In this document: positions 2,367-5,802 of the stretch, piece by piece
How the letters are laid out: the number at the start of each line of letters is the position of its first letter
Numbering within the stretch: position 1 is the first letter of the stretch
Virus record (IMG/VR): IMGVR_UViG_3300007234_000084
Coordinates: 1 to 25,859 of that record
Strand: one strand, 5' to 3'
DNA: 25,859 nucleotides
Origin: a virus
The notes under the pieces: model-generated
Told to the model about the DNA's origin: nothing
Databases searched by the model: none
The model's input: the letters and a program-made list of their open reading frames with translations, nothing else
Made by a program: the position numbers and the translations under genes

Positions 2367-2552
2367 TTATTTATGAATAAATTTTTTGTTAAATGTCTTT
2401 AATGATTTCTCAGCTACTTGATCACCGTTACTAAATACTTTTATGGCACCGCCGGCCTCAAGATAAGCCTGTACATCTTTAGCTATCTCCTGCCGTAGCT
2501 TCTCCTTCTCGAACTCCTTCGCGGCTCCTGGCCAACCTGTATCTATGAACAT
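2367..2552 (-). CDS. Small phage protein of unknown function
   Basis: A 61-aa ORF (MFIDTGWPGAAKEFEKEKL...). Its central part, EIAKDVQAYLEAGGAIKVFS, resembles small phage proteins with an I-x-x-[FY]-L-x-x-G-G-x-[IV]-x-[KV] core followed by a basic tail. The last residues are KKFIHK. It overlaps the 3' end of the CHC2 zinc-finger gene by 74 bases in another frame, and ends 11 bases before the methyltransferase start. The composition looks like real protein. No enzymatic motif is visible. Confidence 0.55.
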   Translation of the reverse strand: MFIDTGWPGAAKEFEKEKLRQEIAKDVQAYLEAGGAIKVFSNGDQVAEKSLKTFNKKFIHK

Positions 2553-2877
2553 CTGTAGCCTTTATTCTTTGCCCTTCTCTTTTTGCTTTTTCGTAGATTG
2601 AGATAAACAGCTTATCTTCAACCCTAGTCTTGTCCAATTTGTACTGTAACTTGTCGAAATCATTGGAATTGTCCTTGAAAATGACTGAAATTGGAAGACC
2701 CAGGGCCTGCATTATCTCTGGACCCTTAGCCTGGCATGAAAAGCAGTAGGCCAGTATCTTATCTCCGACATCTTTAATCGTCATGCTGGGGTTCTTATCG
2801 TCATGTACCGGGCAGCATGCTACATACCCGTCACCCTGTTTCCGTACCTTGTCAAGCCGCTGCAGTATCTGTTCCAC
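2479..2877 (-). CDS. Stand-alone CHC2-type primase zinc-finger protein
   Basis: A 132-aa protein whose first 55 residues match the zinc-binding domain of DnaG/P4-type primases: the ligand set is C22-P-V-H25 followed by C45-F-S-C48, with the hallmark HDDKNPS between them. In full primases this domain recognises the template trinucleotide where the primer starts. There is no TOPRIM polymerase domain in this gene or its neighbours; the remaining 75 residues are charged and helical with no motif I know. The start is GTG at 2877, 26 bases inside the helicase gene, which implies coupled expression and a joint role with the helicase at the fork. It may recruit host DnaG or act with a polymerase encoded outside the window. 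Confidence 0.8.
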   Translation of the reverse strand: MEQILQRLDKVRKQGDGYVACCPVHDDKNPSMTIKDVGDKILAYCFSCQAKGPEIMQALGLPISVIFKDNSNDFDKLQYKLDKTRVEDKLFISIYEKAKREGQRIKATDVHRYRLARSREGVREGEATAGDS

Positions 2878-4321
2878 TCTTAGCCCTCTTTATTCTTAAG
2901 TATGTAATATAATTTTTTACTTCCTGGTCTAGCTTTGTTGCTGGTCTTGGCCAGTTTTCAGGCGGCTCTACCTTAAACTTTTCTTTAAAGGTGTGATATA
3001 TAAACCCTCTCTTGTAGCCTTTCTCATGAGCGTACAACTGTAATCCTGCCAGGAACTTCTCTTGTGCCTTTGACTGCTCTATTTTCTTTAGGGTTTGGGT
3101 GTCAGTGAGTATCTGCTTGAGCTTGGGTCTTTCGTACCCACACAAGCACTTAACCTTAAACAACCTGGTGCATTGCGGGCAGGTTGCTGGCTCAATCTCT
3201 TTGCGCTCCTTTACCAGGCGCTTCTCTTGATAATTCCTTTCACCGGTGTCCAACCTGGATGGTATCAGGTCTTCTGGGAAAGCACCCATCCTGCTAATGT
3301 TCCCGGCGTGGTCCAAGTAGATGCCGCGCTCTTTGCCTGGTGCGGTCCTCCATACCCTACCAGCCACCTGTATATTTCTAATTAAACTTTTACTTGGGGT
3401 GATATCAATAATTATTTCAATGCCAGGATCATCAAAGCCGTAAGTGCATAGCTTTGAATTGCACATAACCTGGTATAACCCATCCTTGAAATCGTCATAA
3501 ATTGCCTTTCTCAACTCAGAGTCCATAGTTCCATCAATATGGACAGCTGGAATCCCTTGCTCATTAAACTCCAGGCACATCTGTTTTGAGTGGGCTACCG
3601 AGGGGGCGAACAACAGCGCACGTTTACGCTGAGATCCGCTAACCCGCCGGTAGTTCTCTATAATATCACCTGCCAGCAATTTATCATTCATAAGGGTTTT
3701 TTCTAATGACTTCTCATCATACTCAACTCCACCACTGGAAAGTCGTTTTAGTTTTACCTGTGAAACATCTGGCGTTCTTCCCCCATAGTAATCTGTAGGT
3801 GCCAAGTAGCCACCAGCAATAAGATCCCTGGGCGTTGCCGGCGTTACCAGGCTAGAAAACACGTTGCCTAATGATTTTGTAAAAGGAGTCGCACTGAGAC
3901 CTATATGCGGCACAGCATTCAGTCGCTTCATTTGCTCCGCCATTGATTTATGAATCGTATGGCATTCATCAATAATCGCTAAATCATAATCCATTTGGTT
4001 TCTTCTGGCTGCGGTCTGAATTGATACAACCTGGATAAGCTTGTCGGGATCATACAACCAAAACTGATCGCCCTGGCGCACCGAGTAGTCGAGGCCCATC
4101 GCGTCAAGAGTATCAGTGGTTTGAGAAATCAGTTTGTTGCGATCTACAAAAAAAACACTTTTCTTGTTGTTAGCTGCAGCCCTCCTCATGATTTCACACG
4201 CAATGAACGTCTTGCCCATTGAGCATGGTGCAGCCAGGACGGGATTTAAACTTCCTCTTTTAATCTCCGACCGTAACTGAGTGATGGCTTGCTCCTGATG
4301 GGGTCTAAGCTGCAGGCTCAA
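2852..4321 (-). CDS. Superfamily 2 DEAD/DEAH-type DNA helicase
   Basis: ATP-driven DNA translocase/helicase of 489 aa. RecA-like domain 1 has a Q-motif-like start (LRPHQEQA), a Walker A APCSMGKT at 31-38, DECH at 118-121 and motif III SAT at 143-145. Domain 2 ends in motif VI QVAGRVWR at 318-325. After it comes a four-cysteine zinc site (C381, C384, C392, C394) and a basic helical C-terminus. This is the architecture of the SSL2/RAD25-like helicases common in phage replication modules. The start is TTG at 4321, sharing TTGA with the upstream stop, and the gene overlaps the CHC2 zinc-finger gene downstream. Together they probably form the phage helicase-primase contribution. The Walker A core C-S-M-G-K-T is slightly unusual but functional in this family. 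Confidence 0.92.
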   Translation of the reverse strand: MSLQLRPHQEQAITQLRSEIKRGSLNPVLAAPCSMGKTFIACEIMRRAAANNKKSVFFVDRNKLISQTTDTLDAMGLDYSVRQGDQFWLYDPDKLIQVVSIQTAARRNQMDYDLAIIDECHTIHKSMAEQMKRLNAVPHIGLSATPFTKSLGNVFSSLVTPATPRDLIAGGYLAPTDYYGGRTPDVSQVKLKRLSSGGVEYDEKSLEKTLMNDKLLAGDIIENYRRVSGSQRKRALLFAPSVAHSKQMCLEFNEQGIPAVHIDGTMDSELRKAIYDDFKDGLYQVMCNSKLCTYGFDDPGIEIIIDITPSKSLIRNIQVAGRVWRTAPGKERGIYLDHAGNISRMGAFPEDLIPSRLDTGERNYQEKRLVKERKEIEPATCPQCTRLFKVKCLCGYERPKLKQILTDTQTLKKIEQSKAQEKFLAGLQLYAHEKGYKRGFIYHTFKEKFKVEPPENWPRPATKLDQEVKNYITYLRIKRAKSGTDTAAA

Positions 4322-5006: not shown

Positions 5007-5189
5007 TCATGTTTTTTTATAAATTATTTCTCTGCCTACCGCTTTGTCAAAATTTTTGCAGCTTGGGCAGTACCATCCGGCCCGCGTAGGAGTCACCGGC
5101 TCACCGTCTCTGGTAACCCTAATCACCTGGTCCATTATAGCGCCGCACTGGCAGTTTTTTTCTTTTAAATTTTCCAATACTCCCTCCAT
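5007..5189 (-). CDS. Small zinc-ribbon protein
   Basis: About 60 aa from ATG 5189; TTG at 5204 (behind AAGGG) and TTG at 5177 (behind GGAGGG) are alternative starts, so the N-terminus is uncertain. The protein holds two cysteine pairs, CQCG and, about 25 residues later, CPSC, separated by a beta-rich stretch (VIRVTRDGEPVTPTRAGWY). That is a zinc-ribbon-like fold, likely nucleic-acid or protein binding. It follows the hairpin-rich non-coding interval and is the first gene downstream of it on the minus strand. Exact family not recognised. Confidence 0.55.
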   Translation of the reverse strand: MEGVLENLKEKNCQCGAIMDQVIRVTRDGEPVTPTRAGWYCPSCKNFDKAVGREIIYKKT

Positions 5190-5204
5190 TTGTTTTAGGC
5201 ACAA

Positions 5205-5631
5205 TTCACCCTTTTCCCCCGGAAGGCCATGAGTCGATAGCTACTCAATGGATCCGCCTGACATATGTCAAAGGTCCGTAGACCTGGTACTTAGTCTTCC
5301 GTCCAGCCTCGCGCTGAATCGGTCCCCCGCCCACTTCTGTGGGATGCTATCACCTTGCCAGCGGCTCCCTTTCGGGCTTCCGGTTGCCTGTTGTCAGTGG
5401 CACGACAGCGCAGGACATTTTGCTGGTTCGGTCTTCACCTCGCGGCAGTTGGTTTTCTAGGTGTCAACTCACCATAAGCCAGAGTTGCGGTCAGGCTTTG
5501 CCACACCGAGGGAATACACAATATGTTGTGTTTATGGACGGGAGGTCGTACAATATAGACCGTAGACGTCCAGTGAGGGATTTTCCCCTTTCCCCTTGCT
5601 GCTTGTAGCCCCCCACACCAGGGGGGTTTTT
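5205..5631. ncRNA. Candidate large structured RNA (or origin-like hairpin region), strand uncertain
   Basis: This 427-bp interval has no convincing minus-strand ORF and looks more GC-rich than its surroundings. In plus coordinates I see hairpins at 5227-5251 (8 bp, one bulge), 5272-5285 (5 bp), 5330-5343 (5 bp), 5362-5382 (3+3 bp with internal loop), 5392-5407, 5460-5473, 5516-5531 (6 bp), a long-range stem 5535-5540/5567-5572 enclosing 5544-5547/5558-5561, and a possible stem 5358-5361/5423-5426. Read on the minus strand, loops include GAAA and cUACGg and one internal loop is purine-rich, which favours that strand. The terminator at 5609-5633, and two G-U wobbles extending the 5392-5407 stem, favour the plus strand. 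I could not match it to tmRNA, RNase P RNA, or group I or II introns. A replication origin is the main alternative. Confidence 0.5.
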
Positions 5632-5633
5632 TT
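5609..5633 (+). terminator. Strong intrinsic terminator on the plus strand
   Basis: Six C, a six-base loop (ACACCA), six G, then seven T: a textbook Rho-independent terminator for plus-strand transcription. All annotated genes are on the minus strand, so this terminator serves either a plus-strand RNA running through 5205-5608 or blocks antisense transcription. Its T-run overlaps the stop codon of the 56-aa minus-strand gene. On the minus strand the same hairpin has no following T-run. Confidence 0.8.
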
Positions 5634-5802
5634 AATGTACTACTTCTTCACTAACTTCCACACCGCTCATAATCGTTTCAATATCTTGTTCTAAGGTGCG
5701 GGCAAGAATTTTCTCCTGAATTGAAGAATCTTGCAACTCCGTTTGCAATCTTATTTTTACAAAACCATCAATCTCTTCAAAAATAATTTCAACCTTTGCC
5801 AT
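5632..5802 (-). CDS. Hypothetical protein, 56 aa
   Basis: Starts at ATG 5802 behind a perfect AGGAGG ribosome site and overlaps the 3' end of the phosphoesterase gene by 14 bases. Sequence begins MAKVEIIFEEIDGFVKIRLQ and continues with an acidic helix (EKILARTLEQDIETIM). The first half looks like two beta strands (VEIIFEEI, FVKIRLQT) and the second like one or two helices. It is the last gene before the hairpin-rich interval, and its stop overlaps the plus-strand terminator. Function unknown. Confidence 0.65.
   Translation of the reverse strand: MAKVEIIFEEIDGFVKIRLQTELQDSSIQEKILARTLEQDIETIMSGVEVSEEVVH

Follow-up and report, generated by a model that had tools for sequence, protein, structure and literature searches.

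The question raised by this locus is what, if anything, is encoded in a gap of 427 bases between two genes of the minus strand. The window, i.e. the whole stretch of DNA that was analysed, is a virus record of 25.9 kb whose genes lie on the minus strand and include those for an SU10-type major capsid protein, a portal protein, a helicase, a DNA-repair-type exonuclease and a cytosine methyltransferase. We consider it very likely that the minus (gene) strand of the gap encodes a conserved, folded RNA, although there are no transcript data. The RNA has a conserved core of about 320 nt and is probably about 400 nt long in all. Within Rfam and the literature searched, it most likely belongs to a previously uncatalogued family, apparently a new class of viral RNA.

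The gap in the window and its visible elements

The upstream gene extends to 5632, and the start codon of the next lies at 5189 (ATG) or 5204 (TTG), so that the gene-free interval at 5205-5633 reported in the initial annotation is confirmed by the ends of the flanking genes. The elements around the gap are as follows:

5607..5635, plus strand: intrinsic terminator immediately beyond the stop codon of the upstream gene; the relative L008 has one too
5007..5189, minus strand: first gene after the RNA, 60 aa, zinc-ribbon-like (CxCG...CPSC), without a Pfam match
2852..4321, minus strand: DNA helicase of the phrog_16 family, downstream of the RNA and in the same direction
2479..2877, minus strand: CHC2 zinc-ribbon primase-type protein (PF01807, E 8.5e-12), which adjoins the helicase and thus points to a replication operon

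Most of what had been noticed by eye in the gap held. The hairpins named there with GAAA and UACG loops are present on the minus strand as CCC-GAAA-GGG (5367-5376) and C-UACG-G (5276-5281), the proposed long-range stem exists in the sequence (TGGACG at 5535-5540 with CGTCCA at 5567-5572), and the perfect intrinsic terminator pointing the other way lies on the plus strand at 5607-5635. The surprise expressed at the density of hairpins was weaker than claimed, as the folding energy of the gap is ordinary on both strands, with z values of -1.43 (plus) and -0.99 (minus), neither of which is unusual. Because folding energy does not set this stretch apart, hairpin density judged by eye is not evidence, and the beyond-chance status of the structure rests on conservation and covariation in relatives.

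Relatives, covariation and modular architecture

Related viral contigs were fetched using the neighbouring exonuclease and helicase of the window. Over about 317 bases of DNA, the RNA core is 89.9% identical to the window in L008 and 83.3% in L006, as opposed to 70% and 63% for the exonuclease genes and 72% and 59% for the helicase genes. Among these three sequences, which form the window clade, the stretch 5186-5508 is conserved and 5509-5606 is divergent. Their consensus fold contains 10 doubly changed pairs, and the order of its elements matches that of a larger group of relatives, type A: closing helix, hairpins a and b, AGUACC, hairpins c and d, and GGGAAAAGG...UGCCUAAAA. The elements of the RNA in the window, all on the minus strand, are as follows:

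5186..5508: conserved RNA core, i.e. the 3' body of window type 'W', defined by identity to L008 and L006 and by the consensus fold with 10 doubly changed pairs; its 5' end lies near 5508 or further upstream and its 3' end at about 5191
5191..5348: match of the type-A 3'-domain covariance model R1 (20.8 bits), which was built without the window
5509..5600: probable 5' extension, with little sequence conservation (alignment A1, read by eye)
5377..5383: 5' arm CCGGAAG of the helix closing the 3' domain, with its partner CUUCCGG at 5219-5225 (A5 consensus fold); invariant, so that covariation is uninformative
5330..5343: hairpin a, CCCAC-AGAA-GUGGG, corresponding to hairpin a of type A, which covaries
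5299..5322: hairpin b, with a C-G to A-U exchange
5286..5291: AGUACC, the motif that separates hairpin b from hairpin c, invariant in type A too
5272..5285: hairpin c with its UACG loop
5227..5251: hairpin d, with several compensatory changes among the window, L008 and L006
5191..5220: 3' terminal motif GGGGGAAAAGGGUGAAUUGUGCCUAAAACA, with the consensus GGGAAAANGNNGNNNNNUGYCYAAAAYA across types W and A; found as a pattern in 52 viral-contig stretches

In L008, the stem in the extension is replaced by TTGGA/TCCAA (alignment A1, read by eye), and in L006 the place corresponding to 5509..5600 is taken by a type-A 5' domain.

Starting from the 3' motif common to the window and L044, a region of about 390 nt was traced that precedes the helicase in many contigs, and all 52 viral-contig stretches matching the pattern drawn from both groups are members or window-type relatives. 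Five matches of this pattern in bacterial genomes were rejected as chance, with no RNA context around any of them. Evidence for an evolved structure comes from the 30 non-redundant members of type A. Their fold has 17 helices with 72 pairs, and 96.7% of the cells are paired. Half of these pairs (36) have changed on both sides, with 325 compensatory cells in all as opposed to 101 in shuffled controls and 18-42 when the structure was slid along the alignment. Likewise, the covariation score of the 30 relatives is 0.438, compared with 0.146 (shuffled) and 0.047-0.057 (slid). In helix b, outer d and inner d, every pair is doubly changed. Pairs are also held via G-U (for example G-U 27, A-U 2, G-C 1), the UUCG, UACG or UUAG loop of type-A hairpin c is swapped with the GNRA loops GUAA and GCAA, and the opposite strand folds worse than the gene strand. 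Since the G-U pairs and the exchange of UNCG and GNRA loops fit the gene strand only, the RNA is assigned to that strand, which is the minus strand in the window.

The link between the window and type A is further supported by the R1 model, which finds the window site with an E-value of 0.0018 over 414 kb and 40 loci, outscored only by undisputed type-A members; within the window alone, the site ranks first with E 1.1e-4, and the next match has 0.056. By the tool's own statement, the E-values of R1 and of the second model, R2, are rough, and the alignment of R1 to the window rests mainly on AGUACC/hairpin c and the 3' motifs, with the inner hairpins skipped.

A second pattern, drawn from the 5' domain, matched 95 viral-contig stretches, 80 of which were listed. 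The profile of this domain yields 82 distinct sequences. Body A is present in 62 of them, body C in 10 and body B in 4, and the remaining six are either truncated or come from L006 and L007. The one 5' domain occurs with at least three 3' bodies, which are exchangeable. L006 combines a window-type body (83% identical) with a type-A 5' domain, which R2 matched with E 4.6e-7 when L006 was left out of the model. The type-A 5' domain consists of a helix P1, a hairpin P2 and a pseudoknot, which shows 77% paired cells with some double changes and is probably real, although not proven. A further pairing between GCAAC and GUUGC of loop b, formed in only 73% of cells and thus below the nested alternative, is not claimed.

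Bodies C (L131-L137, L151, L232, L233) and B (L147, L164, L168, L030-L032) take the same position ahead of the helicase, joined to the same or a related 5' domain. Compensatory pairs are present in body C, which folds better on the gene strand, while the alignment of type B is too gapped to judge compensatory pairs. About a dozen other phages have body D before the helicase, in an RNA of about 450 nt; its 5' architecture is similar with different letters in P1 (GUGUUGG/CCAACAC or GAGUCGG/CCGACUC). It has compensatory pairs too, and its strand is not decided by folding alone. Two of these phages, L155 and L156, carry SU10-type capsid genes. In the relatives, the RNA is about 390-490 nt long, and there is one copy per phage record in the records tested. 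A linker of variable length, made of repeated ACTAGTCA-like units, was observed only in the RNAs of L112, L113, L118, L171 and L173 (A3 columns 132-205, before the central hairpin).

Taken against the initial annotation, its proposal that the gap holds a large structured RNA of unknown family, whose hairpins stand out most clearly on the minus strand, is supported by homologues, covariation, strand-specific G-U pairs and the exchange of GNRA and UNCG loops. Of the checks it had suggested, the Rfam search of the window was run and matched no family, and the hunt for viral-metagenome homologues with covariation was run and found both. Beyond its view lay the position of the RNA at the head of a replication operon, the modular combination of a 5' domain with exchangeable 3' bodies, and the wide occurrence in uncultured aquatic phages.

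Genomic position and comparison with named RNAs

The helicase lies downstream on the same strand in 24 of the 25 loci found by the RNA alone and in 67 of 68 in all, at 357-2444 nt from the start of the RNA, and is followed by the CHC2 zinc-ribbon protein in the window and L044. At the 5' end of the RNA, a sigma70-like promoter site (a -35/-10 pair with 16-18 nt spacing and a score of 8 of 12 or more) was recognised in 69 of 81 loci, compared with 3.8% of random positions; no promoter of equal quality was recognised in the window itself. In the relatives, the 3' end of the RNA lies about 10-60 nt before the ribosome-binding site and start codon of the next gene, with no terminator seen between them. 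This first gene varies between many unrelated families, including the helicase itself and small CxCG zinc-ribbon-like proteins. Small CxCG proteins without a Pfam family come first after the RNA in L138, L112, L118, L123, L125, L145, L171, L173, L247 and the window, and it is conceivable that such a protein is a partner of the RNA. Upstream of the RNA, an intrinsic terminator opposite to the genes was observed right after the stop in the window (5607-5635, plus strand), L008 (near 9364) and L044 (about 3664-3690).

With Rfam 15, neither the window nor L006 nor the members searched of types A, B, C and D matched any family, and a permissive search of the window stretch and L140 gave only chance matches. 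ARAGORN detected no tRNA or tmRNA in the window or 13 member loci; two minus-strand tRNA genes are present in the body-D contig L166 (739-902), over 1 kb from its RNA. A tmRNA was rejected on the negative ARAGORN and Rfam results, the criteria of a tRNA-like domain and a tag frame being unmet; for RNase P RNA and group I and II introns, no conserved core was recognised by the Rfam models, and GOLLD, ROOL and OLE gave no covariance-model match at the gathering score. The RNA was not found in a sequence search of 50,697 phage records, a pattern search of 84,980 bacterial and archaeal genomes yielded no genuine member, and direct DNA searches of plasmids gave no match. The literature searched contains no description of the RNA; subscription journals and most preprints were outside this search, and a prior description is not excluded.

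Nearest in kind are GOLLD and ROOL, which likewise occur in phages and prophages, are large and intricately folded with pseudoknots, and have no known function. Homo-oligomeric assembly of RNA alone is a further trait of GOLLD, ROOL and OLE. In contrast to these, the phage RNA described here is shorter and matches neither Rfam model. GOLLD and ROOL often, but not always, lie near tRNA islands, whereas the RNA here lies beside helicase and primase-type genes. GOLLD has one conserved and one variable end (PMC12286853); here, the 5' domain is constant and the 3' body is exchanged, a layout unlike that of GOLLD and ROOL.

Nearest in place are the put leaders of phage HK022 and the EAR-type leaders, which act in processive antitermination. 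Like the RNA here, they lie immediately behind the promoter, where the operon transcript begins, and the genes that follow them vary. Such a position was seen in the relatives (69 of 81 sites) but is not established for the promoter of the window itself. A put site is a short RNA with two stems and fewer than 100 nt, a description that does not fit an RNA of about 390-490 nt with 17 helices in type A. With 320-490 nt, pseudoknots and several bodies, the RNA here differs from put and EAR, and antitermination is only inferred.

Candidate functions and rival explanations

The function we favour is inferred and lacks transcript, probing or genetic data. The minus-strand RNA would form the 5' end of the transcript of a replication operon that comprises the small zinc-ribbon gene, the helicase and the CHC2 primase-type protein. 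It would be transcribed with the operon and act chiefly in cis: as a leader, it would modify RNA polymerase or the fate of the transcript in such a way that the replication genes are expressed, by analogy in the manner of put or EAR antitermination and perhaps after processing. Because the first gene varies while the RNA and the operon stay, control of a single gene is unlikely and a role at the level of the operon is indicated. Against a leader speaks that 320-490 nt with pseudoknots and near-invariant primary sequence are far larger than known antitermination leaders, and the missing terminator between the RNA and the gene is also compatible with processing to a free RNA. The cis mechanism is preferred to its rivals, but the evidence falls a little short of making it the probable one, and the account as a whole, a structured RNA serving as the cis leader of a replication operon, could as easily prove wrong as right.

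The most serious rival, which remains possible, is an RNA or RNP acting in trans, cut or terminated near the UGYCUAAAA end and working on its own or together with a protein of the phage or the host. It might, for instance, redirect a nucleic-acid machine of the host while the phage replicates, a mode of action presumed for GOLLD and ROOL. This rival is supported by a primary sequence far more conserved than the neighbouring genes, the pseudoknot and tetraloops, the single copy per phage record, the lack of a fixed following gene, and the different 3' bodies borne by one 5' domain. However, no terminator is seen at the 3' end of the RNA, and the place and strand before the helicase operon are nearly constant, which a free RNA would not need. 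An origin-linked RNA, in which the origin would be marked by the promoter and the RNA, and the DNA would be primed or opened by the transcript for the adjacent helicase/primase, is unlikely. In its favour, the RNA adjoins helicase and CHC2 primase-type genes, and the temperate phages PS-1 and YA3 have gaps of 0.5-0.6 kb with cro or regulators on one side and a helicase of the same family on the other. On the other hand, no iterons, notable direct or inverted repeats or skew turning point were found, and strand-specific pairing with RNA tetraloops is unexpected for a plain origin. The absence of iterons and of a skew turning point also leaves the palindrome-rich replication origin, offered as an alternative in the initial annotation, unsupported.

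A structured antisense RNA on the plus strand ending at 5607-5635 is very unlikely. The perfect plus-strand terminator is present in the window, L008 and 7 of 78 other loci, but is missing from most relatives, the promoter lies on the other strand and side, and the G-U pairs and tetraloops fit the minus strand only. A missed or decayed protein-coding gene is all but excluded. The gap does contain two short plus-strand open reading frames (5248-5460 and 5339-5608), but their frames are not conserved: 8 single-base indels separate the window from L008 over 318 aligned bases of about 90% identity, and therefore there is no reading frame. The compensatory changes likewise argue against coding.

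Whether the favoured leader or a trans-acting RNA proves correct, a wider grouping can be considered, namely a new superfamily with a constant 5' domain and exchangeable 3' bodies that would serve as an RNA machine and a core part of the replication module in many uncultured aquatic phages, in cis or as an RNP, unlike known classes; we see the arguments for and against it as balanced. Few families of large structured phage RNAs are known and their functions are open, and the definite place of this one at the head of a helicase/primase-type operon makes its role directly testable. The combination of one 5' domain with several bodies and a conservation above that of the replication genes suggests that selection is strong and tied to a shared partner, perhaps a host factor. 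Surveys based on isolates would miss the RNA, since it was not found in the phage records (by sequence) or in the bacterial and archaeal genomes (by pattern) searched.

The gaps without annotated genes in the temperate Pseudomonas phages PS-1 (L264:2878-3492) and YA3 (L265:2759-3231), which lie between cro-type regulators and the helicase, gave no Rfam family, no R1 or R2 match and no sequence similarity to the RNA. They were not joined to the family for want of a model or sequence match and may be analogous only. The two gaps share conserved pieces with each other, with 84% identity over about a fifth of the stretch.
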